From positions 754,501 to 818,500 of the forward strand of contig NC_092629.1 of the NCBI RefSeq assembly GCF_039555335.1: DNA of 64,000 nt. Direction: 5' to 3'. Source of the stretch: Amphiura filiformis. Its lineage: Eukaryota > Echinodermata > Ophiuroidea > Amphilepidida > Amphiuridae. The position numbers were made by a program, and so were the translations under genes. This document shows, one piece after another, positions 1,567-45,261 of the stretch (the first letter of the stretch is position 1; each line of letters opens with the position of its first letter). The notes under the pieces are model-generated. The model made no database searches. It was not told where the DNA came from and saw nothing but the letters and a program-made list of their open reading frames with translations.

Positions 1567-4500
1567 ATGAACGCCACTTTGGACAAATTAAGTAGGACAT
1601 CGTCGGAGCTTGTCAGTATGTACAACAAGTCGCCAATCAGTGAAAATGTCGGTCAACAGGAGGCGCCATTCCTATCCCAACAGTCACTGCAGCATTACCA
1701 TGGCAACGAGGAGAGATTTACACAGCAACTGACAGCCTACACAAAGAAACAATTTTTTGAGGTAGGGTAGGGGTGTTATCTAACCAACCATCATTTTTGA
1801 TTCTTCAAATTCTTCATAATAAATGAAGGCCATAGCAATGGCTATTTGAACTGACTGAACCCCCAGAAGGGGTACACAGCCGTTTTCGCCAAACGTATGT
1901 CAAACAATTGCCGAGCACAAACGTTTGTCAAACATTTTTGCAAACGCCCGTAAGCGCTTGCAAACGCGTTTTGATCGCTAAATGTTTGTCAAACGTTTGG
2001 CGAAAGCGGCTATGTAGAGGTCTGGTTTATGTTTTCATGTTAAGGGAGCACGGTGGCCTAGCGGAACGGGCACCGACTCATGATTGAAAGGTTGCGGGTT
2101 CGAGCCCCGGCGACGACAACGTGTTGTGCCCTTGAGTAAGGCACTTTATCTCGATTACTCCTATCCACCCAGGTGTTTAAATGGGTACCGGCATTCTTAA
2201 ATGCTGGGAAGGTAACAGACTCGCTGTAGAGGAGGTGTAGCGATCCCCTATAGCAACATTACATGGAGGAGTCTGGCCCAATCGCCAATGAAAGAGAGAT
2301 GGGCACTCTGATCACTGTTTATACAGGATCGTCTCCTTTACCTTTACCTTTACCTTATGTTTTCAGGGTCAAATTTTGGTGAAAATGACAGGCACTTGTC
2401 AAATCCTAGCTAAGACCCTGGGCAGGATACCCAGCTATAGTCCATCCAGTATAAGTTACATTGTAGAACATGATCCCATCCGGTAACCTTTGTTATCTCA
2501 TACACAATGTCCAAAATCATGTTTCATCTTTCTCTAAATTATCTCCTGGCAACTACAAAGTGTTCTACCATAAGTTGGCAACATGACCTTTGCTTCATTT
2601 GTGTAAGATGCATGCATATTGGTGTAGGTCCTGTTCAGCCGCATACTGGAAAAGACTATAGCTTTCACCTAAAGGTGAAAGGTCAGAGGTCATAACTTAT
2701 TTTTTCTTCTTCCAAAGGGAATTGGAGATGTGGCAGGACACAGCGAGTTCTCATGAGTTGCTTGACATAGTGACCCCAAAACTATAATGATCAATGGTGA
2801 TAGACAGGTCAGGTCATACTTATTTCTTCTTCCAAACAGGCAATTGAAGTTGTGTCATGACACTGCAAGAGTACCTGTTATGAAATTCTTGACATCAGTG
2901 ACCCAAACTTATTAAAGGTCAGAGGTCATAACTTATTATTTCTTCTTCCAAACAGGGAATTGGGGATGTAGCAGGACACAGTGAGGGTTCCCGTTATGAG
3001 TTCCTTGACATCAGTGATCCCAACACTCTAACAATCTGAGGTGAAAGGTCAGAGGTCATAACTTATTTCTTCTTCTTCCAAACAGGGAATTGGGGATGTA
3101 GCAGGACACAGTGAGGGTTCCCGTTATGAGTTCCTTGACATCAGTGATCCCAACACTCTAACAATCTGAGGTGAAAGGTCAGAGGTCATAACTTATTTCT
3201 TCTTCTTCCAAACAGGGAATTGGGGATGTAGCAGGACACAGTGAGGGTTCCTGTTATGAGCTCCTTGACATCAGTGATCCCAACACTCTAACAATCTGAG
3301 GTGAAAGGTCAGAGGTCATAACTTATTTCTTCTTCTTCCAAACAGGGAATTGGTGATGTAGCAGGACACAGTGAGGGTTCCTGTTATGAGCTCCTTGACA
3401 TCAGTGATCCCACCACTCTAACAATCAGAGGTGAAAGGTCAGAGGTCATAACTTATTTCTTCTTCTTCCAAACAGGGAATTGGTGATGTAGCAGGACACA
3501 GTGAGGGTTCCTGTTATGAGCTCCTTGACATCAGTGATCCCACCACTCTAACAATCAGAGGTGAAAGGTCAGAGGTCATAACTTATTTCTTCTTCTTCCA
3601 AACAGGGAATTGGGGATGTAGCAGGACACAGTGAGGGTTCCTGTTATGAGCTCCTTGACATCAGTGATCCCCACACTCTGACAATCTGAGGTGAAAGGTC
3701 AGAGGTCATAACTTATTTCTTATTCCAAACAGGGAATTGGTGATGTAGCAGGACACAGTGAGGGTTCCCGTTATGAGCTCCTTGACATCAGTGATCCCAA
3801 CACTCTGACAATCTGAGGTGAAAGGTCAGAGGTCATAACTTATTTCTTCTTCCAAACAGGGAATTGGTGATGTAGCAGGACACAGTGAGGGTTCCTGTTA
3901 TGAGCTCCTTGACATCAGTGATCCCAACACTCTGACAATCTGAGGTGAAAGGTCAGAGGTCATAACTTATTTCTTATTCCAAACAGGGAATTGGTGATGT
4001 AGCAGGACACAGTGAGGGTTCCCGTTATGAGCTCCTTGACATCAGTGATCCCAACACTCTGACAATCTGAGGTGAAAGGTCAGAGGTTATAACTTATTTC
4101 TTCTTCTTCCAAACAGGGAATTGGGGATGTAGCAGGACACAGTGAGGGTTCCTGTTATGAGCTCCTTGACATCAGTGATCCCACCACTCTGACAATCTGA
4201 GGTGAAAGGTCAGAGGTTATAACTTATTTCTTCTTCCAAACAGGGAATTGGTGATGTAGCAGGACACAGTGAGGGTTCCCGTTATGAGCTCCTTGACATC
4301 AGTGATCCCACCACTCTGACAATCTGAGGTGAAAGGTCAGAGGTCATAACTTATTTCTTATTCCAAAACAGGGAATTGGGGATGTAGCAGGACACAGTGA
4401 GGGTTCCTGTTATGAGCTCCTTGACATCAGTGATCCCAACACTCTAACAATCTGAGGTGAAAGGTCAGAGGTCATAACTTATTTCTTCTTCCAAACAGGG

Positions 4501-7500
4501 AATTGGTGATGTAGCAGGACACAGTGAGGGTTCCCGTTATGAGCTCCTTGACATCAGTGATCCCAACACTCTGACAATCTGAGGTGAAAGGTCAGAGGTC
4601 ATAACTTATTTCTTATTCCAAACAGGGAATTGGTGATGTAGCAGGACACAGTGAGGGTTCCCGTTATGAGCTCCTTGACATCAGTGATCTCAACACTCTG
4701 ACAATCTGAGGTGAAAGGTCAGAGGTCATAACTTATTTCTTCTTCCAAACAGGGAATTGGTGATGTAGCAGGACACAGTGAGGGTTCCCAAGTTATGAGC
4801 TCCTTGACATCAGTGATCTCAACACTCTGACAATCTGAGGTGAAAGGTCAGAGGTCATAACTTATTTCTTCTTCCAAACAGGGAATTGGTGATGTAGCAG
4901 GACACAGTGAGGGTTCCTGTTATGAGCTCCTTGACATCAGTGATCCCAACACTCTGACAATCTGAGGTGAAAGGTCAGAGGTCATAACTTATTTCTTCTT
5001 CTTCCAAACAGGGAATTGGTGATGTAGCAGGACACAGTGAGGGTTCCCAAGTTATGAGCTCCTTGACATCAGTGATCCCAACACTCTGACAATCAGAGGT
5101 GAAAGGTCAGAGGTCATAACTTATTTCTTCTTCCAAACAGGGAATTGGTGATGTAGCAGGACACAGTGAGGGTTCCTGTTATGAGCTCCTTGACATCAGT
5201 GATCTCAACACTCTGACAATCTGAGGTGAAAGGTCAGAGGTCATAACTTATTTCTTCTTCCAAACAGGGAATTGGTGATGTAGCAGGACACAGTGAGGGT
5301 TCCTGTTATGAGCTCCTTGACATCAGTGATCCCAACACTCTGACAATCTGAGGTGAAAGGTCAGAGGTCATAACTTATTTCTTATTCCAAACAGGGAATT
5401 GGTGATGTAGCAGGACACAGTGAGGGTTCCCGTTATGAGCTCCTTGACATCAGTGTGATCTCAACACTCTGACAATCTGAGGTGAAAGGTCAGAGGTCAT
5501 AACTTATTTCTTCTTCCAAACAGGGAATTGGTGATGTAGCAGGACACAGTGAGGGTTCCCGTTATGAGCTCCTTGACATCAGTGATCTCAACACTCTGAC
5601 AATCTGAGGTGAAAGGTCAGAGGTCATAACTTATTTCTTATTCCAAACAGGGAATTGGTGATGTAGCAGGACACAGTGAGGGTTCCTGTTATGAGCTCCT
5701 TGACATCAGTGATCCCAACACTCTGACAATCTGAGGTGAAAGGTCAGAGGTCATAACTTATTTCTTATTCCAAACAGGGAATTGGTGATGTAGCAGGACA
5801 CAGTGAGGGTTCCTGTTATGAGCTCCTTGACATCAGTGATCCCAACACTCTAACAATCTGAGGTGAAAGGTCAGAGGTTATAACTTATTTCTTCTTCCAA
5901 ACAGGGAATTGGTGATGTAGCAGGACACAGTGAGGGTTCCCGTTATGAGCTCCTTGACATCAGTGATCCCAACACTCTGACAATCTGAGGTGAAAGGTCA
6001 GAGGTCATAACTTATTTCTTATTCCAAACAGGGAATTGGTGATGTAGCAGGACACAGTGAGGGTTCCCGTTATGAGCTCCTTGACATCAGTGATCTCAAC
6101 ACTCTGACAATCTGAGGTGAAAGGTCAGAGGTTATAACTTATTTCTTCTTCCAAACAGGGAATTGGTGATGTAGCAGGACACAGTGAGGGTTCCCGTTAT
6201 GAGCTCCTTGACATCAGTGATCCCAACACTCTGACAATCTGAGGTGAAAGGTCAGAGGTCATAACTTATTTCTTCTTCCAAACAGGGAATTGGTGATGTA
6301 GCAGGACACAGTGAGGGTTCCCATTATGAGCTCCTTGACATCAGTGATCCCAACACTCTGACAATCTGAGGTGAAAGGTCAGAGGTCATAACTTATTTCT
6401 TCTTCCAAACAGGGAATTGGTGATGTAGCAGGACACAGTGAGGGTTCCCAATGAGCTCCTTGACATCAGTGATCTCAACACTCTGACAATCTGAGGTGAA
6501 AGGTCAGAGGTCATAACTTATTTCTTCTTCCAAACAGGGAATTGGTGATGTAGCAGGACACAGTGAGGGTTCCTGTTATGAGCTCCTTGACATCAGTGAT
6601 CCCAACACTCTGACAATCTGAGGTGAAAGGTCAGAGGTCATAACTTATTTCTTCTTCCAAACAGGGAATTGGTGATGTAGCAGGACACAGTGAGGGTTCC
6701 TGTTATGAGCTCCTTGACATCAGTGATCTCAACACTCTGACAATCTGAGGTGAAAGGTCAGAGGTCATAACTTATTTCTTCTTCTTCCAAACAGGGAATT
6801 GGTGATGTAGCAGGACACAGTGAGGGTTCCTGTTATGAGCTCCTTGACATCAGTGATCCCAACACTCTGACAATCTGAGGTGAAAGGTCAGAGGTTATAA
6901 CTTATTTCTTCTTCTTCCAAACAGGGAATTGGTGATGTAGCAGGACACAGTGAGGGTTCCCGTTATGAGCTCCTTGATATCAGTGATCCCAACACTCTGA
7001 CAATCAGAGGAGAAAAGCCTGAAGTTACTAATGATTGCTGCGAGGAGCTGGCCAGATTAAAAGAGGTGTAAGTAATAGCTCTCTCCATGCGGGTGTCGAC
7101 TGCAGATGCCAAATTTCAATTATTTTATTATTATAAAAAAGAAACACAGAAGGAACAAGAAAGAAGCTAACTGAAAAGGTGAGTTTTCAGTTTCTTTCTG
7201 AAAACTGGAATTGATGGAGACTCCCTGATGGCTTTAGGGCGTTTGTTCCATTCCCTCGGGCCAGAGACAGAAAAGGTATTTAAACCAGATTCTCTATGTG
7301 CCCTAGGCTGACTAAGCAGAGTCTTATCGGAAGAAGATCTCAATTCTCTTCCGGGAGCATAGGCTGAAAGAAGATCACAAAGATTATTAGGGGCATGGCC
7401 CTTAGAGCACAAATATGATTCCATATTTGGAATCAGCATGAAAAATGCATTAAAATGAGCACAAACAAGCTGTATTGGGTCAGTGGTTTTTGAAATAGCT

Positions 7501-10500
7501 CTTGATATTTCGAGAAAATATCTCAAAACGTTTTATGTTAAAACCTATGCCTAGCACTCAACGCATTAAATACCAATATATCAATCAAGTAATGGAAGCG
7601 ATTAGACCCAAAAAGAAAACACTCCGCCATGTTTGTGTGTTGTTCATTGAATGCAATATACAGACGGCAAAAGAATTAAGGTACCAGTTTTGTTCACCCC
7701 CGTGTCATGAGATATAAATCAGCATTCTAAATAAGGCGTGTCCTTGCGTCAAATACCCGTCAAAGTGGGCGCTGACCCGCAAATTTCCTGCGGCACGGGT
7801 CTGTGTGACCCGTAAAAATCTAACCAAGCAAACAGAAAATGTTTGTTATTCCACTGGAAAATCTGGTTCACATAATACGTCCAGCTCCCTAAATACACTT
7901 TCATTTTACTTTCCCATCAAGTTTTCAACCCGGGTTTTCAACAATCTACATACTGTGATCGCCAAAGCTAATTCTCTCTATTGAAATTTCAAAGGCAAGG
8001 GTCCGGGGTCGGACCTGTGAAAATTGGTGAGGAGCCTTAAAATTTCAAGGCCTGATCTAAATGCTCTATTTCGATTAGTTACTCAGATGAGCTTTTAACC
8101 AATCAGGGGCACCTTAAAAAGGCAGATTTGCCCAATGGGTTAATTCATGAATCATTTTGATATTTGGTTTGCAGATATCCTAATAGTCAAAAGCGACGCA
8201 TCAAAGCTGTAACAGAGGAGAATCGTATAGCTGCTGCATGTAGACTAGCTGGGGATAGACTACAAGCATTAAACCAACAGACCAAAGGGTCTACTGTACA
8301 AGACATCAGGTTAGTACTCAATGACTTATAATATAGGACTCATATTGCTGCCGTATGTACTCTAGCTGGGATAGACCAACGGACCAAAGGGATCTCAGCT
8401 TATGGTACTGAAGGAAGACAAAAAACAACTTTATATGTTTTATATCGTCATTGGGCAGGAAAACCCTATGTACTTGCGGCCTTTGAACATGTTTAAAACA
8501 AAACTGCCAAGAGGTTACATAGGAGGTTTTGATTTAAACTTGTTCAGGGGCCAATGACATACAATATTAGCAGAATATAAGACTTGTAAGGATAAAGAAA
8601 AATAATGCTGTGCCTCAAAGCGCATGGCAGTTTCAAACTCGGATGCAGAATGTTTTTTTTTTTTTTTTTTTTTGTTTTAATTTTCTAAAACTTAATTTTG
8701 AATTAAGATGTCATTTTTAAGTGCTCAAAACTACACAGCATAAAATTTTGATTGATTTACACATTTGAAGTACAAATATCAATTGCTTTATACCTAAACA
8801 TTTGTGTGTTTTCAGTGACAGGAATCAAGAAACAGAGAAGCAACTGAATCATGTCCAGAAAGAGGTCGCTATGTTAGCAGACAGCCAAGTGCCAAAATGG
8901 ATACATGAGAATGCAGAACTACAGGGAACATTAATACTGTATGGGGATTATAATCTGAAACTGGCTAGACAGGATTACTTTACTTCTAAACAAAATGAGG
9001 TGAGTACGGACCCTGTGAGGTACTCATGACATATGACCATACAGACTACAGGGAACATTAATACTGTATGGGGATTATAATCTGAAACTGGCTAGACAGG
9101 ATTACTTTACTTCTAAACAAAATGAGGTGAGTACAGACCCTGTGAGGTACTCATGACATATGACCATACAGACTACAGGGAACATTAATACTGTATGGTG
9201 ATTATAATCTGAAACTGGCTAGACAGGATTACTTTACTTCTAAACAAAATGAGGTGAGTACAGACCCTGTGAGGTACTCATGACATATGACCATACAGAC
9301 TACAGGGAACATTAATACTGTATGGTGATTATAATCTGAAACTGGCCAGACAGGATTACTTTACTTCTAAACAAAATGAGGTGAGTACGGACCCTGTGCG
9401 GTACTCATTACTAATGACCATACAGACTACAGGGAACATTAATACTGTATGGTGATTATAATCTGAAACTGGCTAGACAGGATTACTTTACTTCTAAACA
9501 AAATGAGGTGAGTACAGACCCTGTGAGGTACTCATGACATATGACCATACAGACTACAGGGAACATTAATACTGTATGGTGATTATAATCTGAAACTGGC
9601 TAGACAGGATTACTTTACTTCTAAACAAAATGAGGTGAGTACAGACCCTGTGAGGTACTCATGACATATGACCATACAGACTACAGGGAACATTAATACT
9701 GTATGGTGATTATAATCTGAAACTGGCCAGACAGGATTACTTTACTTCTAAACAAAATGAGGTGAGTATGGACCCTGTGCGGTACTCATTACTAATGACC
9801 ATACAGAGAAGTGCTACAAAATGAGGTGAGTACAGACCCTGTGAGGTACTCATTACTAATGACCATACAGACTACAGGGAACATTAATACTGTATGGTGA
9901 TTATAATCTGAAACTGGCCAGACAGGATTACTTTACTTCTAAACAAAATGAGGTGAGTACAGACCCTGTGAGGTACTCATGACATATGACCATACAGACT
10001 ACAGGGAACATTAATACTGTATGGTGATTATAATCTGAAACTGGCTAGACAGGATTACTTTACTTCTAAACAAAATGAGGTGAGTATGGACCCTGTGCGG
10101 TACTCATTACTAATGACCATACAGAGAAGTGCTACAAAATGAGGTGAGTACAGACCCTGTGAGGTACTCATGACATATGACCATACAGACTACAGGAACA
10201 TTAATACTGTATGGTGATTATAATCTGAAACTGGCTAGACAGGATTACTTTACTTCTAAACAAAATGAGGTGAGTACAGACCCTGTGAGGTACTCATGAC
10301 ATATGACCATACAGACTACAGGGAACATTAATACTGTATGGTGATTATAATCTGAAACTGGCCAGACAGGATTACTTTACTTCTAAACAAAATGAGGTGA
10401 GTATGGACCCTGTGCGGTACTCATTACTAATGACCATACAGAGAAGTGCTACAAAATGAGGTGAGTACAGACCCTGTGAGGTACTCATTACTAATGACCA

Positions 10501-13500
10501 TACAGACTACAGGGAACATTAATACTGTATGGTGATTATAATCTGAAACTGGCTAGACAGGATTACTTTACTTCTAAACAAAATGAGGTGAGTACGGACC
10601 CTGTGAGGTACTCATTACACATGACCATACAGACTACAGGGAACATTAATACTGTATGGTGATTATAATCTGAAACTGGCCAGACAGGATTACTTTACTT
10701 CTAAACAAAATGAGGTGAGTACAGACCCTGTGAGGTACTCATGACATATGACCATACAGACTACAGGGAACATTAATACTGTATGGTGATTATAATCTGA
10801 AACTGGCCAGACAGGATTACTTTACTTCTAAACAAAATGAGGTGAGTACAGACCCTGTGAGGTACTCATGACATATGACCATACAGACTACAGGGAACAT
10901 TAATACTGTATGGTGATTATAATCTGAAACTGGCCAGACAGGATTACTTTACTTCTAAACAAAATGAGGTGAGTACAGACCCTGTGAGGTACTCATGACA
11001 TGTGACCATACAGACTACAGGGAACATTAATACTGTATGGTGATTATAATCTGAAACTGGCCAGACAGGATTACTTTACTTCTAAACAAAATGAGGTGAG
11101 TACAGACCCTGTGAGGTACTCATGACATATGACCATACAGACTACAGGGAACATTAATACTGTATGGTGATTATAATCTGAAACTGGCCAGACAGGATTA
11201 CTTTACTTCTAAACAAAATGAGGTGAGTACGGACCCTGTGAGGTACTCATTACATGTGACCATACAGACTACAGGGAACATTAATACTGTATGGTGATTA
11301 TAATCTGAAACTGGCCAGACAGGATTACTTTACTTCTAAACAAAATGAGGTGAGTACGGACCCTGTGCGGTACTCATTACTAATGACCATACAGACTACA
11401 GGGAACATTAATACTGTATGGTGATTATAATCTGAAACTGGCTAGACAGGATTACTTTACTTCTAAACAAAATGAGGTGAGTACAGACCCTGTGAGGTAC
11501 TCATGACATATGACCATACAGACTACAGGGAACATTAATACTGTATGGTGATTATAATCTGAAACTGGCTAGACAGGATTACTTTACTTCTAAACAAAAT
11601 GAGGTGAGTACAGACCCTGTGAGGTACTCATGACATATGACCATACAGACTACAGGGAACATTAATACTGTATGGTGATTATAATCTGAAACTGGCCAGA
11701 CAGGATTACTTTACTTCTAAACAAAATGAGGTGAGTATGGACCCTGTGCGGTACTCATTACTAATGACCATACAGAGAAGTGCTACAAAATGAGGTGAGT
11801 ACAGACCCTGTGAGGTACTCATTACTAATGACCATACAGACTACAGGGAACATTAATACTGTATGGTGATTATAATCTGAAACTGGCCAGACAGGATTAC
11901 TTTACTTCTAAACAAAATGAGGTGAGTACAGACCCTGTGAGGTACTCATGACATATGACCATACAGACTACAGGGAACATTAATACTGTATGGTGATTAT
12001 AATCTGAAACTGGCTAGACAGGATTACTTTACTTCTAAACAAAATGAGGTGAGTATGGACCCTGTGCGGTACTCATTACTAATGACCATACAGAGAAGTG
12101 CTACAAAATGAGGTGAGTACAGACCCTGTGAGGTACTCATGACATATGACCATACAGACTACAGGGAACATTAATACTGTATGGTGATTATAATCTGAAA
12201 CTGGCTAGACAGGATTACTTTACTTCTAAACAAAATGAGGTGAGTACAGACCCTGTGAGGTACTCATGACATATGACCATACAGACTACAGGAACATTAA
12301 TACTGTATGGTGATTATAATCTGAAACTGGCCAGACAGGATTACTTTACTTCTAAACAAAATGAGGTGAGTATGGACCCCAAAGCGGTACTCATTACTAA
12401 TGACCATACAGAGAAGTGCTACAAAATGAGGTGAGTACAGACCCTGTGAGGTACTCATTACTAATGACCATACAGACTACAGGGAACATTAATACTGTAT
12501 GGTGATTATAATCTGAAACTGGCTAGACAGGATTACTTTACTTCTAAACAAAATGAGGTGAGTACGGACCCTGTGAGGTACTCATTACACATGACCATAC
12601 AGACTACAGGGAACATTAATACTGTATGGTGATTATAATCTGAAACTGGCCAGACAGGATTACTTTACTTCTAAACAAAATGAGGTGAGTACAGACCCTG
12701 TGAGGTACTCATGACATATGACCATACAGACTACAGGAACATTAATACTGTATGGTGATTATAATCTGAAACTGGCCAGACAGGATTACTTTACTTCTAA
12801 ACAAAATGAGGTGAGTACAGACCCTGTGAGGTACTCATGACATGTGACCATACAGACTACAGGGAACATTAATACTGTATGGTGATTATAATCTGAAACT
12901 GGCCAGACAGGATTACTTTACTTCTAAACAAAATGAGGTGAGTACAGACCCTGTGAGGTACTCATGACATATGACCATACAGACTACAGGGAACATTAAT
13001 ACTGTATGGTGATTATAATCTGAAACTGGCCAGACAGGATTACTTTACTTCTAAACAAAATGAGGTGAGTACGGACCCTGTGAGGTACTCATTACATGTG
13101 ACCATACAGACTACAGGGAACATTAATACTGTATGGTGATTATAATCTGAAACTGGCCAGACAGGATTACTTTACTTCTAAACAAAATGAGGTGAGTACA
13201 GACCCTGTGAGGTACTCATTACTAATGACCATACAGAGAAGTGCTACAAAATGAGGTGAGTGTGGACAGGCCTTATATTAAGTATGCCTGGACCAGGAGC
13301 TAAAATGAGCTCCTGGTCCCAAAGATGGCTCCTGGTCCTATAGTTTGTAGTGTAAAATATTGGATGCACCAGGAGCCAAAACTGGGCAACCATGGGGTAA
13401 AAAAAGCCTGGGTGCCTGGTTAATATAAGCCTTGAGGTACTCATTACATAATGACTATACAGAGAAGTGCTACAAATGTTGCTCTCATCTCCGGGTCCTG

Positions 13501-19500: not shown

Positions 19501-21036
19501 AAAAAAACGATACTAAAGAATTAGATGATGAGCATTGTTTCTAAATCATTGGGCTATTCCATTTAAAATCCAGACTCATCCTGTGGAAGATTTATATCTA
19601 ATACAGGGGGAGTGTGAATTTCAAATGGAATGAACACATTAGCAGCTCCATTTGAAACTCACCTCCCTCTACTAAAGAATTAGATGATGAGCATTGTTTC
19701 TAAATCATTGGGCTATTCCATTTAAAATCCAGACTCATCCTGTGGAAGATTTATATCTAATACAGGGGAGTGTGAATTTCAAATGGAATGAACATAGCAG
19801 CTCCATTTGAAACTCACCCTCCCTCTGTGGAAGATTCAGGTTGAATCTTTCTCAGAGGCTGTGTGACAATCAAATGGAGCTGATAATGACACAATTCAAT
19901 TGGCTAAACGGTACCCGACTTCATGATACGCCGTAAACAGCACCAAATCGGGCAGTGGGAAAGGTCTTTGTAAATATAATGCTGTCATTAACATGCAATT
20001 ATGTTGTTGACATCAGAAAAAATTGCAGATGTCGACATAAAATTTGGATTAATAACATTTATCAACATTATTTATGGCACATGGTACTTAACTGTGGAAT
20101 ATATACGATTACGTCTTGGCGTATTTTTATGTTGACATGTTATTGAAACGTTGACAAATTTTTCTGACATGTTGAGTTGTCGACAAGAAAAAAACCATTT
20201 CAATTACAGCACTATTGCAAAATTAATAGGTGTAATATTTCAATTGATTCTAATTTAATTTATCTCATTTCAGGGAACAAAATCTCTCTGTTTGCGAGGA
20301 TATGGTTTACGCAAACAGCGCCACCAAAGATGGACAACCTATAATGAGTCCGCCTCAACTGATTGACGGACTGACACAACTAGACCAGACAATTAAGAAC
20401 CTTGAGCAGACGATATGCGACATTATTACAGAACACAACAGCAAAACTAAGGTAGGGTTTATTATAGCTGGGAATTTTCACGGGGGTTTAATTTTAGCAC
20501 TTTTTGCGGTCAAACAAGCAACCGAGAATGTTTAACCCCACAAAAATATTTATTACGCATGGTCATGTGTCTTGAACTAAAGCATGGTAATACCTTCTTG
20601 CTTGGCAGAAATATCATCAATTGATTTGAGTCGCATTTGGAAAAACGTAACATCTATCAAGGCACAGTTATTTAACCCCAATACATTTACACATTCATTG
20701 AATGACCTTTGAAAATTTGGGTACAAAACCTCATACTCTACAACTTGAGGTCAAATTTTGCACTATGATTGTTTAATTGAGGTTATTGAACTATGCCATT
20801 GGGTTGAGGCCATTATGATGAGTTTTTTATCATTTCAAATACCCCAATGTTGTTGCCATGGCGGCCATTACTTGTTCTCAAATTTGATACTCATTTTTTT
20901 TCTTCAGAGTTTGAAGTCTGATCCGTTCCTTTCTCGACAACGTCAACTGTTTGTTTACTTCTTTTTGGAACCAAGTCGTCTGCGCAGAGCTGTGAATGAA
21001 TTAACGCAGCGGCTGGAGGCCCAACTGGTTTCGTAG
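1567..21036 (+). CDS. HAUS3: HAUS augmin-like complex subunit 3 (C-terminal exons; gene continues left of window)
   Basis: HAUS3 is a coiled-coil subunit of augmin, which binds spindle microtubules and recruits gamma-tubulin to branch new ones. Nine exons are supported: 1567-1761, 6925-7067, 8175-8309, 8816-8999, 14521-14673, 15628-15724, 16962-17106, 20274-20451 and 20908-21036 (TAG). All have GT-AG borders, and the phases (0, 2, 2, 0, 0, 1, 2, 0) join into 452 residues. Recognisable family motifs are YTKKQFFEG across exons 1-2, GDYNLKLARQDYFTSKQ in exon 4, QKARNDFLMMAYEMEVKGH in exon 5, LFLTYGNL in exon 7 and QLFVYFFLE in exon 9, in the same order as I recall for vertebrate HAUS3 (about 600 residues). 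About 150 N-terminal residues are therefore missing to the left. The first exon begins with an internal Met, not a start. Exons 2, 4 and 9 are each the edge copy of a tandem array, which is unusual. Identification is by remembered similarity, not a search. Confidence 0.9.
1879..2010. mobile_element. Small fold-back MITE (132 bp)
   Basis: The ends are inverted copies: GCCGTTTTCGCCAAACG on the left and its near complement CGTTTGGCGAAAGCGGC on the right, with inner inverted TTTGTCAAAC motifs. No coding sequence. It interrupts the hAT-type MITE around it. Confidence 0.6.
2038..2354 (+). mobile_element. tRNA-derived SINE
   Basis: The head has a polymerase III A box (GTGGCCTAGCGG near 2051) and B box (GGTTCGAGCCCC near 2098), the tRNA-type internal promoter. 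The body is not coding and the 3' tail is a (CTTTAC)n run. An 11-bp target duplication, TTATGTTTTCA, flanks it at 2027-2037 and 2355-2365, as expected for LINE-mediated insertion. The host sequence is the MITE at 1826-2420. Confidence 0.85.
2669..7012 (+). repeat. Tandem array of HAUS3 exon 2 acceptor side, about 34 units of 120-130 bp
   Basis: Each unit holds about 45 bp of intron ending in a pyrimidine tract and acceptor (TTCTTCTTCCAAACAG), then about 80 bp homologous to the start of exon 2 (GIGDVAGHSEG...YELLDI), then GTGAAAGGTCAGAGGTCA. I count 32 well-conserved units plus two diverged ones at the left end. Nearly all copies read ACAATC-TGA, an in-frame stop right after the exon homology; the last unit (6925 on) reads ACAATCAGAGG and runs into the rest of exon 2. 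Only that last unit can make the full exon. Most variation is in the number of TTC triplets of the pyrimidine tract and a few C/T sites. The most diverged units at the left suggest that the array expanded near the exon. Confidence 0.95.
7077..7515. mobile_element. MITE fragment interrupted by a LINE 3' end
   Basis: The left edge (CTCTCTCCATGCGGGTGTCGACTGCAGA) is the reverse complement of sequence at 19430-19460, and 7415-7510 is the reverse complement of 19270-19390. The two stretches therefore belong to one repeat family. The middle (about 7130-7410) is a LINE fragment, annotated separately. Lies in the intron after exon 2. Confidence 0.45.
7130..7410 (-). pseudogene. Non-LTR retrotransposon, C-terminal end of reverse transcriptase ORF plus 3' tail
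   Basis: On the - strand an open frame ends at 7167 with the typical tail of jockey/CR1-type LINE proteins: HAPNNLCDLL, then RSSSDKTLL, then FSVSGPREWNKRP, and a closing KTHLF. A short AT-rich 3' UTR with an ATAATAATAAAATA-like tail follows toward 7125. It is 5'-truncated, as most LINE copies are, and has no catalytic domain. Confidence 0.7.
7520..8174 (+). other. Rest of HAUS3 intron 2
   Basis: No gene seen. It is AT-rich and ends with the acceptor TTTGGTTTGCAG before exon 3 at 8175. A stretch near 8060-8150 resembles 1190-1530. Confidence 0.5.
8310..8815 (+). other. HAUS3 intron 3 with poly-T run
   Basis: Intron between exons 3 and 4, with donor GTTAGT at 8310 and acceptor TGTGTTTTCAG ending at 8815. 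It contains a homopolymer T run at about 8651-8673 and nothing else I can name. Confidence 0.6.
8919..13264 (+). repeat. Tandem array of HAUS3 exon 4 donor side, about 31 full units of 127 bp plus 7 short units
   Basis: Each unit repeats the last about 80 bp of exon 4 (coding LILYGDYNLKLARQDY...KQNE), its donor GAG|GTGAGT and about 45 bp of intron, ending CATACAG. The first unit is joined to the upstream part of exon 4 and is the functional one, with its donor at 9000. The period is 127 bp (starts 8919, 9046, 9173). Unit 1 and unit 2 share GGGGATT where later units have GGTGATT, a synonymous change. Seven short units carry GAGAAGTGCTACAAAATGAG instead of the full exon piece. Three of them at 9811, 10129 and 10446 recur at 11780, 12099 and 12416, a second-order period near 1,970 bp. 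Confidence 0.95.
13268..13432. mobile_element. Small MITE in last unit of the exon 4 array
   Basis: The termini AGGCCTTATATTAA and TTAATATAAGCCT are inverted, and the interior repeats 'CCAGGAGC/GCTCCTGGT' in both orientations. Array sequence (GAGGTACTCATTACATAATGAC) resumes after it, so it inserted after the array formed. Confidence 0.65.
13671..14292. mobile_element. MITE-like element with internal duplication
   Basis: Inverted ends: TTAAAAGCAATAATGTGTGATTTG at left and CAAATCACACATTATGGCTCCTTTAA at right. Inside, a block starting CCGATTATTATTATCATGATTATCGG near 13840 is repeated near 13980 (about 130 bp apart), each followed by GCAGCTGATGGGAT. No coding sequence. Confidence 0.5.
14353..14425. 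repeat. Fragment shared with 40816-40890
   Basis: The sequence from GTTTTGGAATTAAATC through GTCTGGAACCAC matches 40816-40888 almost exactly. It is a truncated copy of a dispersed repeat; the copy at 40.8 kb continues into a hammerhead-like motif, while this one stops before it. Confidence 0.7.
14724..15033. mobile_element. Probable MITE in HAUS3 intron 5
   Basis: Weakly inverted ends (GCAACGGAAGC and GCTTCCGCTGT) enclose G-rich and C-rich flanks and AT-rich sequence with TTTTGCTATTTT motifs. The short open frames here have no recognisable product. The repeat at 55464-55884 has similar internal phrases (AAAATAGTGTAAAATG). Confidence 0.35.
15841..16440 (+). mobile_element. Internally deleted mariner element
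   Basis: The 600-bp element has about 150-bp terminal inverted repeats starting CGAGGGGGTATCCAAAAG and is flanked by TA on both sides (15839-15840 and 16441-16442), the target of the IS630-Tc1-mariner superfamily. The centre keeps decayed pieces of a mariner transposase helix-turn-helix region (VIKFLHLKG; DEPRSGRPS) with stops. The catalytic domain is absent, so it could only be moved in trans. It sits in the intron between exons 6 and 7. Confidence 0.85.
17728..17857. repeat. Inverted repeat / MITE
   Basis: CGACTGCTCAGTACCAGAAG at the left and its near complement ending GAGCAGTCG at the right form arms of about 35 bp around a short loop. Non-coding, in the intron between exons 7 and 8. Confidence 0.6.
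18357..18621. mobile_element. MITE, 265 bp
   Basis: Inverted termini ACCTAAGTGGAAGAA and TTCTTCCACTTAGGT, followed internally by GGGCCCA/TGGGCCC. No coding sequence. Confidence 0.6.
18656..19014. mobile_element. Fold-back MITE, same family as 37850-38205
   Basis: Long imperfect arms start near GGGTGTAGTACC (right end) and are built from 'TTTGCATTTTTCTCAAAAA', 'TATATTATAGGGGCAAGGA' and their complements. The copy in the RNF170 intron has the same order of blocks, so this is a dispersed family. Confidence 0.7.
19512..19828. repeat. Tandem duplication of about 160 bp
   Basis: Two adjacent near-identical copies start at ACTAAAGAATTAGATGATGA (19512 and 19672) and end in CTCCATTTGAAACTCACC. The phrases GGCTATTCCATTT and CAAATGGA also occur in the repeat at 27176-27466, so the unit comes from a dispersed family. 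Confidence 0.85.
19829..20273 (+). other. End of HAUS3 intron 7
   Basis: AT-rich, no gene seen. It ends with the acceptor TCTCATTTCAG at 20263-20273. Confidence 0.5.
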
Positions 21037-21295
21037 CCAAGCCAACAGAGGGCACTATTTCCTCTTGGAACCATTTGTCTTCATGGAGCATGAATTAGCA
21101 GAAGGAATTGAAGCCCAACTTTGTAGCTAACATACGACATTTTTCTACTGATACCAAGCTGTAAATGAATTAAACAAAGACTCAAAGCCCAACTTGTTTC
21201 GTAGCCAATATAGGGCGTAACTTCTTTGTGGAACCAATTGTCTCTATAAATGAGGTGACCTCAATGTTATCAACAGAGGCAAGGGCCTGGTAATC

Positions 21296-21427
21296 AGGCA
21301 TGGGACTACGCATTTATGAAAAAATCTGGAAAAGCGCGTAAAATTGGACAAAAACACCTGAAAATGGGCTGAAAATAAATAAAACTGCGGGAATTCCAGT
21401 GTTTCCACTGGAAAATCCCATGCCTGG
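21296..21427. mobile_element. Small MITE with CAGGCATGGGA ends
   Basis: Inverted ends CAGGCATGGGA and TCCCATGCCTG with GGTAAT immediately outside both ends, a possible 6-bp target duplication. The interior is AT-rich and non-coding. Confidence 0.5.
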
Positions 21428-21638
21428 GTAATATTGATATGCTTGAGTGAACACAATGCAACCACTATACTGTTCAATAGCTTTATTATATTGTGATGTG
21501 CCGGGAGTTTTAAAAACACAAGCCCTGAACAAAATATGATGTTCGCGCATACTGTCAGGCAAAAAACAATGGAAATTGTGATGATGTGTGCGCATACTGC
21601 CAGGCACTGACGTCAGAAGTCAAGTCATCTATAGAGTG

Positions 21639-21824
21639 GGGGTTCTCAATTATATTTATTCATGGGCTATGGAGGGCCAAAATCATTTCATAGATTTGTG
21701 TTTGAGGGCCAAATACATCTTGGTTTGCCATGTTTACTTTTCATTTTAGATCTTTTCATGGGCCAACCACAATTGGTTGGCAGGTCAGATCTGGCCCACA
21801 GGCCACCTATTGAGAACCCTGTAG
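21639..21824. mobile_element. Small hAT-like MITE
   Basis: The ends GGGGTTCTCAATTA and TATTGAGAACCC are inverted. Internal GGGCCA motifs also occur in both orientations. A clean target duplication is not visible. Confidence 0.45.
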
Positions 21825-22738
21825 AACATGAGGTTGGGCCACAAAGAATTGAAGCGCAACATGTTTTGTAACTAACATAGAGCATTTTTGACCAATACCA
21901 AGCGGTCTCTATAGAGCCACAAATTAATTAAAACAAAAGACTCAAAGCCAGCGTTCGAAATAGGGCCTGGCCGGTAACTTTTCTGACTTGCATCTATTTG
22001 CCGTCCCGGCTGGCCGCAGGGTTTTCTTTAACGCACAAAACACGCGTATTTACGCGTTCAGGCACTTTGCTGACTCCTTCAAATCCAAAGTCCCAAAGTC
22101 CAACGCGCATACAAAATCTTGAAAACGTCACGCGTTCAGATATTGCAAGATTTGAATAGAGAAACACCCGATATTGTGCATTTATTCACGGCTTTTGGCA
22201 TTTAGGACCTACTCCCGATATGTAGGGCCCATCACATTTTGTCAGCATTAATCCATGCATGTTTTAGTGATTTGCGAGTAAGGTAGAGTGTCAGTTTGAA
22301 ATCTTGCAAATTGGGTTCGGGTCCTTTTTTCTGTTTAAAGGATGCACCAAATGTCTTCAATCGGACTTTAATTTTGCACAATTTTCCCTCTCAGGGGTGA
22401 ACATCCCCTCAGACGCCCCCATGCGTAGTGGATAAACAAGTGACCATTTTCGCTTCTGCTTTCGACTTTTGCCAATTTAGGCCATATTTTTAACACAATT
22501 TATAAGCCTAATAGGGAAAACGTGACAAAGAAAGGCTTCATGGACCATCATTTCACAATTTTTGGCTTTTCAACTTAAATTTTACACAGTAATAGTGCCA
22601 AAATGGTCCACCAAATCGCTTCAATTAGGTCTTCATTGTGCAAAATTTTCCACGTTCTGAGGGGGGAACAAAAAATTAAATGGCCACTTTCACTTCTGCT
22701 TTCGACATTTGACAATAATGTTTAACACAATTTATAGG

Positions 22739-23109
22739 CAGGCCTCGAATTAAGGATCTGAAGGGGCACAGCAACTTTTTTAGGGCAAGTTGTTAATTGC
22801 CTTGGATTTTCACTCAAAAGGCAAGGCAGCACGACAGTTTGTAATATTTCAAGAGGGCATCATGGCAACTGTTGAAAATTTGAGAAGGGCGCCAAGGCAA
22901 TTTCTCAAAAGTGAAGAAAACACACACAAACATAGATAGATGATTTTATTATGAAAGGGCAGGGCTGGGCCGGGCACCGGCAACAACTTCATTAGAGGGC
23001 ACGACAAGTGACTGCCTTGGGTAAAGGACATATTTTGAGGGCATTATGGCAGTGGGGATGGGCACCCACGGCAAAATGCTGTGGGTGCCGTGGGTTAATT
23101 CGAGGGCTG
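22739..23109. mobile_element. hAT-type MITE, 371 bp
   Basis: Termini CAGGCCTCGAATTAA and TTAATTCGAGGGCTG are inverted; the 8-bp target duplication TTTATAGG lies at 22731-22738 and 23110-23117. The sister copy at about 24290 lacks the insertion and shows the empty site. Confidence 0.9.
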
Positions 23110-23677
23110 TTTATAGGCCTACCATAATAGGGAAAACTTGCCGTCCGAAGGCTCCATCATGATCATGTCCATGTACTGCTCATTTCACAAATGTTCTGCT
23201 TTTTTAAACTAAAATTTTACACATTAATAGTGCCAAAATGATCCACCAATTTGCTTCAATTAGGTCTTTATTTTTCTTTTAAAATTGCCCCCACCCTTCT
23301 GACTGCTTTAGATCCGCCACAGCTCCAAACAGTGACGCAGATTTCTTTTTGACTTGGGGGGTGAAAAAAATGTCTTGAAGTATAGTGAATCCAGGCTTTA
23401 TCCAGCACCTTTTGGTGAAAGAATACTAGTAAGTTTATGGTACAAAACATTTTGCCACTGTTGAAATATGGTGCAAAAGTGGAATAAATTGTGCTAAGCG
23501 GGCAAAAATGTGCACTTTTTGGGCTAAAATGGCCAAATATGAGGTTAATTTGGTAAGAAACATGTCGATATAGGGAGAAAACCCACATACAGGCGTCAAC
23601 ATTGGGGGAATGATTGTATGGTCCACCCCTGGCAAAATATTGGGGAGATTTCTCCCCCCCCGGATCTCGCCTATGGC

Positions 23678-23968
23678 CAGGGTCTTAGCTAGCCACCCGT
23701 CTGGCCGTCATTTTAGACGGCCAGTTTGCTCCTGGGACGGGCAAAATTAATGCCTTTGACAGATGCTATATTATAAATTGTATGTTTTGAGAAGCTAATT
23801 GACCTTTTTAGTAGACCCAATTTGTAGAACAAGGCCATATCAGCATATATTTGAACTCTTTGAACCCCCAATGGGCTATAGATGTCTGGTAAATGTTTTA
23901 AAGGTCAAATTAGGACAGACAATTTTATTCAAATGACGGGCAACCCTCAATTTCTAGCTAAGACCCTG
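23678..23968. mobile_element. hAT-type MITE, 291 bp, founder-type copy
   Basis: Termini CAGGGTCTTAGCTAG and CTAGCTAAGACCCTG are perfectly inverted, with target duplication CCTATGGC at 23670-23677 and 23969-23976. The empty site is present in the sister block at about 24840. Its interior is homologous to 1826-2420 and to the flanks of the minisatellite at 35458-37003. Confidence 0.9.
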
Positions 23969-25452
23969 CCTATGGCTCCAAAAACAAACATTGTTAAAAA
24001 TGTCTTCAAAAATAATATTATAAAAATACCCCTTGGGCAATGTTTTTGACTCCTTCAGAGGAAAAATTCACAATTGAAAGGGTCAAAAAAAATTTGAAAA
24101 TACCCCTTCAGCAAAATGCTTAAAGAAAACCCTGACAGTAATAGTGCCAAAATGGTCCACCAAATCGCTTCAATTAGGTCTTCATTGTGCAAAATTTTCC
24201 ACGTTCTGAGGGGGGAACAAAAAATTAAATGGCCACTTTCACTTCTGCATTCGACATTTGACAATAATGTTTAACACAATTTATAGGCCTACCATAATAG
24301 GGAAAACTTGCCGTCTGAAGGCTCCATCATGATCATGTCCATGTACTGCTCATTTCACAAATGTTCTGCTTTTTAAACTAAAACTTTACACATTAATAGT
24401 GCCAAAATGATACAACCAATTTGCTTCAATTAGGTCTTTATTTTTCTTTTAAAATTGCCCCCACCCTTCTGACTGCTTTAGATCTGCCACTGCTCCAAAC
24501 AGTGACGCAGATTTCTTTTTGACTTGGGGGGTGAAAAAAATGTCTTGAAGTATAGTGAATCCAGGCTTTATCCAGCACCTTTTGGTGAAAGAATACTAGT
24601 AAGTTTATGGTACAAAACATTTTGCCACTGTTGAAATATGGTGCAAAAGTGGAATAAATTCGTGCTAAGCGCGCAAAAATGTGCACTTTTTGGGCTAAAA
24701 TGGCCAAATATGAGGTTAATTTGGTAAGAAACATGTCGATATAGGGGAGAAACCCACATACAGGCGTCAACATTGGGGGGGTGATTGTATGGACCACCCC
24801 CTGGCAAAATATTGGGGAGATTTCTCCCCCCCCAGGATCTCGCCTATGGCTCCAAAAACAAACATTGTTAAAAATGTCTTCAAAAATAATATTATAAAAA
24901 TACCCCTTGGGCAATGTTTTTGACTCCTTCAGAGGAAAAATTCACAATTGAAAGGGTCAAAAAAATTTGAAAATACCCCTTCAGCAAAATGCTTAAAGAA
25001 AACCCTGGCTGGCCGGTAACTTTTTAAGGTCAAGCCCGGTTGGCCTGTAACTTTTTGAGGCATATTTCGAACACTGCTCAAAGCCCAACTAGTTTCGTAG
25101 CCAACAGAGGGCGCTATTTCTTACTGGAGCCAGTTGTCGCTATGGAGCACGAATTAGCACAAAGAATTGAGCCCTAACTTGTTTTGTAGCTAACATAGGG
25201 TATTTTTAATGGAAATGTTACAACATGGCAACAAATGAGAGGCAAATGCACCATTATGACTATAATGACAAATAAAATGAACAAGCAGAAAGACTGTCAT
25301 ATTAGTAGAATAAACAATTATTTATTTCTCAATGTTTGTGAATACCAAACCACACATAAAAATACAAATGATCAGATCTCATGAAAAAAAATCCCCAAGA
25401 TCGTTTATCAAGATCAATAATATTCTTAAATAAAATCTTTTATAGTTCATTA

Positions 25453-27012: not shown

Positions 27013-27175
27013 TCGGACTATAATAAAATTTCCTTTCAGTATACATATAAAGATACTGACCTTTTCCCCACATATATAATTTATATCAAAATCCAAATAC
27101 ACAAAACAATCACATTTTCAGGTTTGTGCATACAAAGCAATTGTTTTCAAAAATCAGTAAAAAAGAACAAAAATG

Positions 27176-27466
27176 GACTATTCCAGTTGAAATCCATACG
27201 CCCCTTATGGAACATATGACCAATCTTTATCTTCACACAGGGAGTGTGAATTTCAAATGGGGTTACCTTACCTGAATGGGTGAATCCATTTGAAATTAAT
27301 ACCCCTTGTCATGTCTTCCACAAGGGGTGCATGGATTTCAACTGGAATAGCCAATTTTGTAGCAGACGACACTGAATGGGTGACTCCATTTGAAATTCAC
27401 ACTCCCTATGTAGGAGATTAAGGTCATGTCTTCCATAGAGGTGTAAGGATTTCAACTGGAATAGCC
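27176..27466. mobile_element. MITE with CTATTCCAGTTGAAATCC ends
   Basis: Ends CTATTCCAGTTGAAATCC and GGATTTCAACTGGAATAG are inverted, and inner copies of AGGGAGTGTGAATTTCAAATGG face each other. The repeat at 19512-19828 uses related phrases. Confidence 0.65.
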
Positions 27467-28788
27467 CATTACTACATGTACTACCTGTAAAGTTGGTTCA
27501 GCATATGTTGGCGAATACCATGAGACTCATAACATTGTGTATCACTTGGGTGCAGCACTTGCTAATTGCACGTAACGTGTCTGGGGTGTTAACGCGGCTG
27601 TGTACTCTAGACATTGTTTCTTTCGCGAAATTGAGTTTTTTGTATAAGTTTGTACTTAATGTTTTTTATAAATACAAGGAATGAAAATCCAGATTTATAA
27701 ACTCCAACTGCAATATTTTAAGGATTTTATTTCACTATATTCCACCCGTGTTTGAAATTTAAAAGGAAAGAAAATCTTTGTTGTACCAGCAGGGTACACG
27801 CGCGCAACAACGCATCGCGTTGCGTATCGTGCAATTTGGTAACGCACAGATACGCGACGCTTATCTGCATGCGTGGCGCATCTTATGGAAATACCACGGA
27901 AGCACTGATTTCACAAAAACCTAGCGGTCAAATGGCTCCGTTTTAGCTGATAAAATGTGATTCTTTCCCCCTATTTAAACATCAAGATATGAATAGATTT
28001 CGCCCAAACTTCTCAAGGGGCTGTGGATGTACCCGATGTTCACGTAATGTAAGGTAGAAAAACGGGAACTGCCGCATTCTCCTGTAAGCTTCGATCAAAG
28101 TGCAAAATGTGACCACTTTAAACTTCAACGGCCTTTATTTCAATGTTCATTTTCTCGGTAAAATAACGATTTAGGTACACGATAACTCAATAAATACAGC
28201 ATCTATAAGGTAAGCAATAATGCTCATCATAAAAAGCATGATTGACTTAAGAAACGGTTTTCTCATTTTTTTTATATTTTGGTCTATTTCCGATTTTAGG
28301 CATCATTTTGTACAAATAGGCGTTTGTGAATTTTAAAAAGTTCATTTTGATGCCTTATATGATCAATATCTCAAAAAATAAGGCCAATATCAAAAAACAA
28401 AAAAAGAAGTTTTTGGAATGGTGCCTCAAGATTAAGAAAAAAGCAAAACAAAAATGTTTGGAAAGAGTGTTTTTTTGTTATGTACCGAACAAAAATTGCC
28501 AAAAATTCACTTTTTTGTGATTTTCTTCATAATTGTTGTTTTTACGCCAAAACTGTACTTATATTGAGATTCATTGATGTATTGCCTTTATAAAAATGTA
28601 TACTTTTACATGTCTTGCGTGAATAATTACAAAGTTATGGCACTTTTACTACATGCGTATCTGAGAGTACACAGCTACCTTAATGTGAATTTATGTGATC
28701 AAAGTTGGGACTTGGTGACACATGCAGTAACAAAAACCGAATAACAAACTATAGACAGAAATATACACAAAATTGTGATATAATAATA

Positions 28789-30245: not shown

Positions 30246-30269
30246 CTCACTCTCTCTCTCTCTCTCTCA
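30246..30269. repeat. (TC)n microsatellite
   Basis: About twelve CT dinucleotides in a row in the intergenic region. Confidence 0.9.
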
Positions 30270-31002
30270 AGTCTCAATAGAGTAGACTGGTGCACAGTAC
30301 AGACCCTTGTATCATTTGTAAAGTCAGTTCTGCTTGGTTACACAGACATTATCCATAACCTGCATGAATAGGTTGTCTTATGGATCAGTCAGGGTTGTTT
30401 AGTTTTTCTTCAATCTTAATGCTTCTACAACTTTTGGATACAATTAAAATACCTCTATGATGTCATTTTATCTATTGCTAAAAATTCACCTTCAAGGTGC
30501 AGAATTCAACAGGTTTGTTCCCCATGATTTTACCAAATATTTTCTTTGAAATTTTCACATGTAAAAACATGTTTTGATTTTGTAGTAAATACCTGGTAAG
30601 ACTGTGCATATGACTAGCATTCCACTGGTACTCATTTGACTTTATTATGGGGGTATAGCAGTTCTTAGAATCAAAAAAATCGATTTAAATTTTTTTTAAA
30701 TCTGATTTTTTTTAAAAATTTTAAAAAATCAACAACCCTGGGATCAGTACTCAATAGGTTGTCTTATGGATCTGTGACAGCATTGCAACCTTTCAGGTTG
30801 CAATCATGAAGTTACATCATCATTCCTTTATTTTTAAAAGTACTAGTTAATTTAACTTCCTCAAAAATAAAATTCTTGATTTTTGGTGAAAATTATGGGA
30901 AATCTAAACTTGTAATTCATTGTTAAGCCTTGGGATATGGCTAGATTAAATGTTCTTGAAATTGCTGGAATATTTTTTCTTACCGTTCACCCCTTTAATT
31001 TT

Positions 31003-31190
31003 CTACGTATCCACACCCATTCCCCTATTTGCAATATTACCCCTATATATAATAGTCACATAATATGCCTAACAAAAGTTGTACAAAGGTGTCGTCTACG
31101 TATCAGCACCCATCCCCCTATTTGCAATAATACCCCTATATATAATAGTCACATATATGGCTAACAATAGTAGTACAAAGATGTCATCCA
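31003..31190 (-). repeat. Duplicate of the RNF170 stop-codon end of the last exon
   Basis: The last about 95 bp of the coding exon (31096-31190, plus-strand phrases CTACGTATCAGCACCCAT and AATAATACCCCTATATATAA) is repeated with substitutions at 31003-31095, an offset of 93 bp. The extra copy falls after the stop codon, in the 3' UTR, and includes a copy of the stop codon. Confidence 0.9.
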
Positions 31191-34100
31191 AGAATCCTAA
31201 AACACCAAATACAGCTTCCGGAATAATGTCTAGAGGTGATATAAAATACACGATTGCTGCGAAGAAACACAAGATAATGCGCAGACGAAACATCCAAACG
31301 AGGCCAGAGAAAGAGAAGAACTCCCTCATGGCGTGCCGGAGAAGAGTTGGTAGGTCACGAAGAATGTCCATTATCTGAGAAGAAGAGGAGAACGTATTAT
31401 GTTACTTGTTTATTTATTATTCGACTTATTGACACAATAATGCAGCAAAATAGGATAATAGGCGGTACAAACATAAAAACACAAAATATTTATGTATAAT
31501 TCAATTTATTTCACAATTTTTCATCATTTTTTTTACAATTCTCCCTTTTTTCTGTCACCATGAGTAAAAAATAGTATATTGTTGACCCAATTTTTTTTTA
31601 ACCAACGCCTTCCGTCTACCAACGGCCTTACATGAACCGGCTCCCCCTGGCCCCCAACTGGCTACGCCACTGATGTGTTTCTCTCTGCAAATCGCAAAAA
31701 TAACTGTACGTGAAAATTACTACTTATACAGTACTTTACTCACACAGCAAAAAATTGTTAAGCTAGGATGCACAACTAAGTTGACTAGCCGTCGTAGCGA
31801 CTATTACTAGTATTAGCAACTATGCCCTACGGTCAAAAGACGATGGTTGAGTGTCGGGTGAGGGAGAGGAGGGTTGAAGGTTAGGTAAACTTATTGGTCT
31901 AGGGTCCCCCCCCCCCCAGGGTCCCCTGAGAACCTATTGTAATCATTGAGATTTACAAATTTGTAATACTTTCAGGGGGGAAGGGGATGAGAGGGTGCCT
32001 TAGTAAACTTACCAGTTTAGGGTCCTCTCAGAACCATATAATTCTTTCCAGGATGGGGGAGGGGATGTGAGGGGAAGAAAATTAGGTGACTTTAGTAAAC
32101 TTACCGGTCTAGGGTCCCCTGAGAACCTCCTATTGTAATCATTGATAGCATTTGAGACAGTCTGGGCTTCCTCAACAGTCACATCGACTTCACGAAAACA
32201 TGGAAATAGTACAGTAACCTGAAATGGAAGGGAATTGTATCATTATGATTCCTGCATAGTGATGATCGCTAGATTGGAAAGGCCTTGGGCAAGGCGTATT
32301 GCCTCGCTTGTCTCACCCCATCCAGGTGCAAGGGGAAGCTGTTAGGGATAGTCACAGTTGTTGTACTGATGAACCATTTTTAGGCAGCAAAACGTGGTTC
32401 CGACAGATTCTAATGACGGCGGAATAAATGTGAGGCTGTTTACAGCATAAAGCGCTATATAAATATCTACATTTATTTATTTATTACAACAATAATCCAT
32501 TATGAATATAATAAGGACCTATACGTGCACTGTGACATTATCATGGGTCATTCGAAATCAAAAATAATTTAATTGAACAGTACGAAGTGGTGATTTTGAC
32601 CCCCTTGAAATCCCAACGAAATTTAAAAATCTTTTTCGGCATTATGCATTGATTTTGACGCCACTAAAATCTCAACGAAATTCAAAAATCTATCTTTTTT
32701 GGCAAGAGGGTCACAATTGTGATCACTTTTAAGAAAATGCCCCTCAAAGAGAGCATTTTGTCATTTGGACCATTTAAATTCCCAATTTTGGTCAAGATCA
32801 ACAAACTTTGACGGCCCGCCATTCACAAATGAAATGGAATTTGACCTTTTTTCTTGTGACCTTACCTTGGGATCCATGAAAGGTACCTTTGAGCCAATGG
32901 AGAGCAAAAATCCAAGTGGGTGGTAAGGACCGTCGATGTTAGGATTTTAAAAAATCGATATATTGGTCACTCATTATCGATAATAATCGATAAATCGATT
33001 TTCCTCCCAATTTTAATGACCTGAAAATTCAAGTCACTAAGCTTCAAAAATTTGACAGTCGTAAGAAAAGTTAGCAATATTTATCAATTCTACAACATTT
33101 TCGGAGGGAAATTAGGATGATAGAACATATGGAAATGTATTAGAAACTTTTAATAGTGGTGAGGTAAAGTAACACTGATTGATTCTAGAAGTTTTTACAT
33201 GTCAAAACACGCCTGTATTGACAAAATTGCGTTGGTTAACACGCTGCTTACGCCTCGATTTTTGGATTTTTTTCATTATCGGCAACTCCGATATATCGAT
33301 TTTCTTCCGAAAGTGATATCGGCGATATTGATATTATTGGATAGCCGATTTTTTGATTATTATCGATTCATCGACGGTCCTTAGTGGGTGGGTGTATACT
33401 TGGTCTGCTTTGGCATGAACTGACCCATTGGTGTTCTTTATATCAAGTCATTGTAATGGGCCATTCACAAATGACATACTGCAGGCATGAGAATTTTCAG
33501 TTTAAAAAATGAATTCAGTTTTTTTTATAGTCAAAATTTCCGCAACTTTATTTAATTTCAGCCTGTTTTTGGTACTTTTTGCCCAATTTCACGCGCATTT
33601 TCAGTTTTTTCAGTTTTTTTTAGGAAAGTGCAGTCTCATGCCTGCTACTGGCTAGTACATGTACAGGTGGCGTGCACAGCTAACAAAGTACATCAACTCA
33701 GCAGCCAGGAGGTCTCGAAACTACCAACTTGTGATTTCATGCTCATTTTGTGAGAGCAGGTCACATGTTGACCCCTGACCTAATAGGATTTATGGGACCT
33801 TTACACACAGAGGAATATGTTCAGATATGAAGAGCTTTGTTTCAAAACCCCTTACATCCACTTGCCCAATTTTGAGAACACAAAAATCACTGATATATGG
33901 GGTTTGCAACAAAAAGCAGTTTTTGGCGGATGCTCATTCTACCCAAGCATCCCGCCAAAAACTGCTTTTGTTGAAAACCCCCTTATATCAGGGATCTTTT
34001 TTTATGATTATTTGATGTGTTCTCAAAATTGGGCAAGTGGATGTAAGGGGTTTTGAAACAAAGCTCTTCATATATTACACAACGTTTAATAATAAAATTA

Positions 34101-45182: not shown

Positions 45183-45261
45183 CAACAAACACAGAAGCTG
45201 TGTCGGCAAGTGTGACATCAAATAGTCCAGGAGCCAGGCCAAATGTGTCGCTGGTAGCCCA

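Follow-up and report, generated by a model that had tools for sequence, protein, structure and literature searches.

Gene context

Two convergent neighbours, HAUS3 on the plus strand and a putative RNF170 gene on the minus strand, lie in the window, by which we mean the whole 64,000-nucleotide stretch of Amphiura filiformis DNA analysed here. Nine in-window plus-strand exons, when joined, give an open frame that matches HAUS3, with hits to the Pfam family HAUS-augmin3 (E 3.3e-23) and to the solved structure of HAUS3 in the PDB (E 8.7e-52), in agreement with the identity proposed by an earlier sequence-only reading of this DNA. The gene is partial here, since the Pfam match covers the profile only from position 145 of 260 onwards, which places the gene start upstream of the window; the HAUS3 exon numbers used below are for this reason in-window numbers. 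The minus-strand gene consists of five exons running from start to stop codon and encodes a protein with RING and DUF1232 matches. We take it to be RNF170, a name that comes from the earlier reading and from the domain architecture. A search of the window against Rfam at gathering thresholds was negative. The exons concerned are:

1567..1761, plus strand: HAUS3 in-window exon 1, its donor upstream of array A1; part of the joined frame with HAUS3 matches
6925-7067, plus strand: true HAUS3 exon 2, part of the joined frame; it carries the exon-joined A1 copy (A1 copy plus exon 2, 6883..7067)
8816..8999, plus strand: HAUS3 in-window exon 4, part of the joined frame, its 3′ end being the exon-joined A2 copy
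20908..21036, plus strand: HAUS3 terminal exon, CDS part including the stop codon, part of the joined frame
32105..32218, minus strand: RNF170 exon 4 with its donor at 32105, part of the joined frame

The window also holds other repeats. HAUS3 introns contain a tRNA-like SINE-type sequence recognised by eye before A1 (2041-2360), an element with inverted ends that are 92.5% alike over 174 bp (15838-16443), and a 159-bp tandem duplication, 97% alike and off the exon edges (19511-19826), part of which matches a repeat at 27385-27468 in inverted orientation. An RNF170 intron holds, away from exon edges, a 39-bp minisatellite of about 38 copies (35456-37001), and an apparent single copy of the same unit, split by a palindromic insert, was seen by eye in a HAUS3 intron near 1850-2031. 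Further along are a Pao/BEL-type retrotransposon region with long open frames (43585-49754), in which the frame at 46755-49751 matches Peptidase_A17, an integrase zinc-binding domain and DUF5641, and a large inverted pair (61745-64000) whose arms, 61745-62512 and 63176-64000, are 84% alike over 837 aligned positions.

Five tandem arrays at exon edges and coding-sequence ends

Five tandem arrays, with copy numbers from 2 to 38, sit on exon edges or CDS ends of the two genes:

A1, 2679..6882, plus strand: 33 decoys repeating the acceptor edge of HAUS3 exon 2, the first two badly diverged
A2, 9000..13255, plus strand: 37 decoy units following HAUS3 exon 4, each ending GAG before GTGAGT
Edge of A2, 13433..13476, plus strand: far intronic edge related to the A2 units, beyond an insert, 93-95% identical to the short units
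A3, 20957..25202, plus strand: six degenerate units of the HAUS3 CDS end and 3′ flank, with inserts at about 21255-21832 and at 21950-25076
A4, 31885..32145, minus strand: RNF170 exon 4 donor edge in triplicate, with the true copy at 32095-32145 and two more at 32003-32039 and 31885-31949
A5, 31003..31186, minus strand: the final ~92 nt of the RNF170 CDS, present twice (CDS-joined copy 31096-31186, the second past the stop)

All five are present where the sequence-only reading had placed them, and its claim that one copy is still attached to the rest of the exon is borne out by the array layout and the joined frame. Its description of them as amplified exon edges holds for A1, A2 and A4, which lie at exon-intron edges, but had to be corrected for A3 and A5, which are CDS ends in terminal exons, and its top copy number of about 34 becomes 38, the number of A2 donors counting the true one. 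In A1, A2 and A4 (three of the five arrays) the repeat unit spans the exon-intron boundary, and the authentic exon keeps one joined copy. Both features define the ‘mirage’ minisatellites that, according to the available portions of two papers, are carried in amphioxus by Adh3, the globin genes BflGb6 and BflGb9, TnC and PGBD5 (PMC3087553, PMC3902484). The unit spans no exon-intron boundary in A3 and A5, where the CDS end and stop codon are repeated inside the terminal exon.

The HAUS3 acceptor and donor arrays

Each A1 unit consists of about 47 intronic bp, which include the acceptor, and about 80 bp from exon 2; its length is 125-130 bp among the homogeneous copies. Searching with nhmmer, we found 34 plus-strand matches to the 127-bp unit at 2679-7010 and none elsewhere in the window on that strand; the final copy is attached to exon 2. 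The acceptor AG is kept in all 34 copies, the string being part of the search pattern and the nhmmer count also being 34. Relative to the exon-joined copy, the two most distant copies carry differences at 19 of 118 and 32 of 109 sites (16% and 29%), and the other 31 (copies 2-32) at 1-9 of 121-126 sites. Divergence grows with distance from the exon, both without the two old copies (rho 0.39, p = 0.029) and with them (rho 0.50, p 0.003). Such units, variable and homogenised with diverged copies at the edge, are again characteristic of mirage minisatellites. Exon-derived and intron-derived parts are alike in variability (0.0281 versus 0.0265 across 32 copies), and 25 distinct unit sequences occur among 31. 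An exact 37-base A1 pattern had no match in viral contigs.

The A2 decoys comprise 27 units of 127 bp, three of 126 bp and seven of 64-65 bp. All 38 donors, the true one included, read GAG then GTGAGT; this string was the search pattern, and nhmmer independently gave 38 copies. Among the 27 units of 127 bp (the three 126-bp units excluded), exon-derived sites vary less often than intron-derived ones (2 of 82 versus 6 of 45, p = 0.023), and mixing of two old intron variants could explain this difference. Differences from the true exon end showed no significant trend with distance (rho 0.26, p = 0.19). We also considered whether the A2 units harbour cryptic exons; the acceptor-like site in them has a weak pyrimidine fraction of 0.45, compared with 0.5-0.8 in eight HAUS3 acceptors. 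A common origin of A1 and A2, considered in view of their equal 127-bp period, was rejected: plus-strand matches to the A1 unit are confined to 2679-7010 and those to the A2 unit to 8900-13238. Since nhmmer finds no shared sequence between them despite the equal period, the two arrays look like separate events.

A2 contains a block of 16-17 units twice (9381 and 11350), the second shifted by about 1,970 bp, with seven units letter-identical in order. Across 2,366 aligned bases the two blocks are 98.7% identical, as expected of an assembly or haplotype duplication, and copy numbers might on that account be inflated by assembly or haplotype error, particularly through this block. We consider such inflation very unlikely: the blocks differ in several units, in single-base deletions and in one altered short unit, the diversity of the A1 units speaks against it, and A3-A5 are too divergent to be recent artefacts.

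The decayed and low-copy arrays

The A3 units, about 80-100 bp long, are decayed; with unit limits set by hand, all seven non-reference pieces score above every one of their own 500 shuffles. The second insert in A3, about 3.1 kb long, is flanked by a 9-base direct repeat noted by eye and contains a duplication (23110-23677 and 24280-24850) that is 97% alike over 572 aligned bp. At A4 the farthest donor copy lacks GT, as judged by eye. The A5 copies are 87% identical, and the unit stops at the stop codon, including almost no 3′ UTR.

Reading-frame consequences of the decoy sites

When exon 1 is joined to decoy A1 acceptors, a stop codon follows 6-52 codons past the junction in all 32 tested (of the 33 decoys, the oldest being excluded). 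Likewise, when exon 4 is extended to the decoy A2 donors, a stop appears within ten codons in 37 of 37. With the true A1 acceptor and the true A2 donor the HAUS3 frame stays open. Because the decoys bring stops, only the exon-joined sites among those tested yield HAUS3. On this frame logic, splicing presumably ignores the decoy sites and uses only the exon-adjacent one. We found no new spliced intron with the frame kept, as intron gain by tandem duplication would give, at A1 or A2, where the frame is open only through the exon-joined copy.

The stop codons that would follow decoy use also bear on whether the arrays are selected for splicing control, for example as decoys that produce stop-containing isoforms and thereby tune the level of HAUS3. 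The retention of AG in 34 of 34 A1 copies and of GAG plus GTGAGT in 38 of 38 A2 copies (strings within the search patterns, with equal nhmmer counts) agrees with such a role, as does the greater variability of the intron parts of A2. However, A1 shows no such difference between exon and intron parts, recent expansion accounts for the identity of the copies, and GT has been lost in one A4 donor copy (by eye). We regard a selected role in splicing control as highly improbable.

Origin of the arrays

We think it probable that A1-A5 are mirage-type minisatellites that arose by ordinary tandem duplication, with selection acting as a filter, an intact copy kept at the exon and unequal exchange later; A3 and A5 are two CDS-end cousins of this type. 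A short tandem duplication would have had one breakpoint within coding exon sequence, with the second falling in the neighbouring intron or immediately after the stop codon. A full copy would then stay attached to the exon, leaving the protein unchanged if splicing uses the exon-adjacent site (or translation ends at the first stop codon); the surplus copies would fall into the intron or 3′ UTR. Such a duplication would be survivable because the intact copy remains joined to the exon. A1 and A2 would subsequently have expanded and turned over by unequal exchange or slippage. The unit structure, the straddling of edges, the repetition of the A2 block and the old, diverged A1 copies most distant from the exon can be read directly from the DNA; the extra copies may well be neutral and machinery specific to boundaries unnecessary.

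At the junctions for which both parents are readable, the overlaps are 3 bp in A1 (from the rarer form of the junction, which has an A in common with the exon and whose precise string is found once, the commoner form giving no exact overlap), 1 bp in the 127-bp unit of A2 (with one base difference to the far edge set aside) and 5 bp in the 64-bp unit of A2. An overlap sum of at least 9 has a probability of 0.002 under a simple random model. These overlaps fit microhomology weakly and are only suggestive.

Some observations count against an origin by ordinary duplication and neutral turnover. The lower variability of the exon parts of A2 does so because neutrality alone does not predict it, the trend with distance in A2 is not significant, and a test of duplication events tends to show edges over-represented (p = 0.027-0.032, falling to 0.0005-0.007 with generous counting). 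The sequence-only reading had suggested, on the strength of the five arrays, a process that duplicates segments at exon-intron boundaries, or the loss of a mechanism that normally cleans them up. A process favouring boundaries might act, for example, through breaks coupled to transcription or splicing. In its favour, splice edges are straddled by two of the window's three largest arrays. We compared edges with other positions and listed local duplications as events.

In the position test, a second copy within 1.5 kb that spans the edge was found for 4 of 28 edges, compared with 74 of 600 controls (Fisher 0.47), which is not significant. As controls we drew random non-edge positions from 1600 to 42000, with the three large arrays excluded; of their 74 matches, four lie in A3 or A4 themselves, and A5 was not counted as an edge, its unit ending at the stop. 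Leaving out a transposon-dense block lowered the controls to 33 of 530 and gave p = 0.11, or 0.035 with A5 as a fifth edge, an exclusion chosen after seeing the matches.

The event test over the gene span used 13 hand-listed local duplications, of which four include a splice edge where 0.67 would be expected (p 0.003, the A2 sub-array being treated as a separate event). Counting A2 once leaves three splice-edge events and p = 0.027; adding the A3 CDS end gives 0.0005, or 0.005 with A2 once. For the whole window (18 events) the corresponding values are 0.004 and 0.032, and 0.001 and 0.007 with the CDS end. All of these p values overstate the case because the window was chosen for this feature. 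In addition, two of the five arrays are CDS ends, and the introns hold several tandem duplications that touch no edge, among them the 39-bp array of about 38 copies (35456-37001) and the 159-bp duplication (19511-19826). In principle, a simple filter would predict part of an edge excess, as a duplication wholly within CDS alters the protein and one that straddles an edge leaves an intact copy. The sequence-only reading described most of the anatomy correctly, and events of one common type are plausible, but the window does not establish a special process or lost removal, with a non-significant position test and an event test from a window selected after the fact. We judge a boundary-directed process unlikely as the maker of these arrays.

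Relation to known systems and significance

Among the papers listed by literature searches on this phenomenon, none came closer than those on the amphioxus mirages and on the human and potato cases. As in amphioxus, the arrays consist of a tandemly repeated 5′ or 3′ exon edge with adjoining intron and leave the authentic copy in the gene; in both, many copies keep splice signals and boundary copies escape homogenisation, so far as the available text of the amphioxus papers goes (PMC3087553, PMC3902484). From Adh3 data and their own globin RT-PCR, the authors of the first of these concluded, in the part available, that regular splicing continues (PMC3087553). In that literature, as far as it is available, the two BflGb6 haplotypes have 6 and 3 repeat units, in contrast to 34 and 38 copies in one gene here; also unlike amphioxus, HAUS3 combines acceptor, donor and decayed CDS-end arrays, and A2 interleaves two unit lengths.

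In human segmental duplications, internal tandem repeats at exon-intron boundaries alter gene structure, and the minisatellites described here are similarly located (PMC2812944, available portion). The human repeats have a mean unit of 30 bp and 4 copies, vary between paralogues and in some cases form new introns (same portion of PMC2812944); the units here are longer and the copies more numerous, with no sign of a new intron. Introns can arise by tandem duplication (Rogers model), and in the case presented in the available part of that source the duplication includes splice signals, as it does here (PMC4974935). Unlike that case, in which the copy became a new spliced intron and exon (same part of PMC4974935), the frame is kept here only by the exon-joined copy among those tested. 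The general phenomenon is already described, and the value of the present example lies in its copy number and in its clustering in one gene pair.

The exon-joined copies of A1 and A2 are near-identical to most array units, in contrast to the two A1 copies at the far edge, with divergences of 16% and 29%; exchange would accordingly move mutations between decoys and coding sequence. A HAUS3 exon locked in concerted evolution with more than 30 non-coding copies of its own edge is a tentative prospect that we hold to be possible, if doubtful. Should splicing indeed pass over 33 acceptors and 37 donors that closely resemble the true sites, the choice would have to depend on where a site lies with respect to the remainder of the exon. 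Such a choice, if true, would be a direct natural test of exon definition, with the spliceosome selecting a single site among 34 near-identical acceptors, or among 38 donors that have nine bases in common. Arrays of this kind are also relevant to the lengthening of introns and to the possible origin of new ones.
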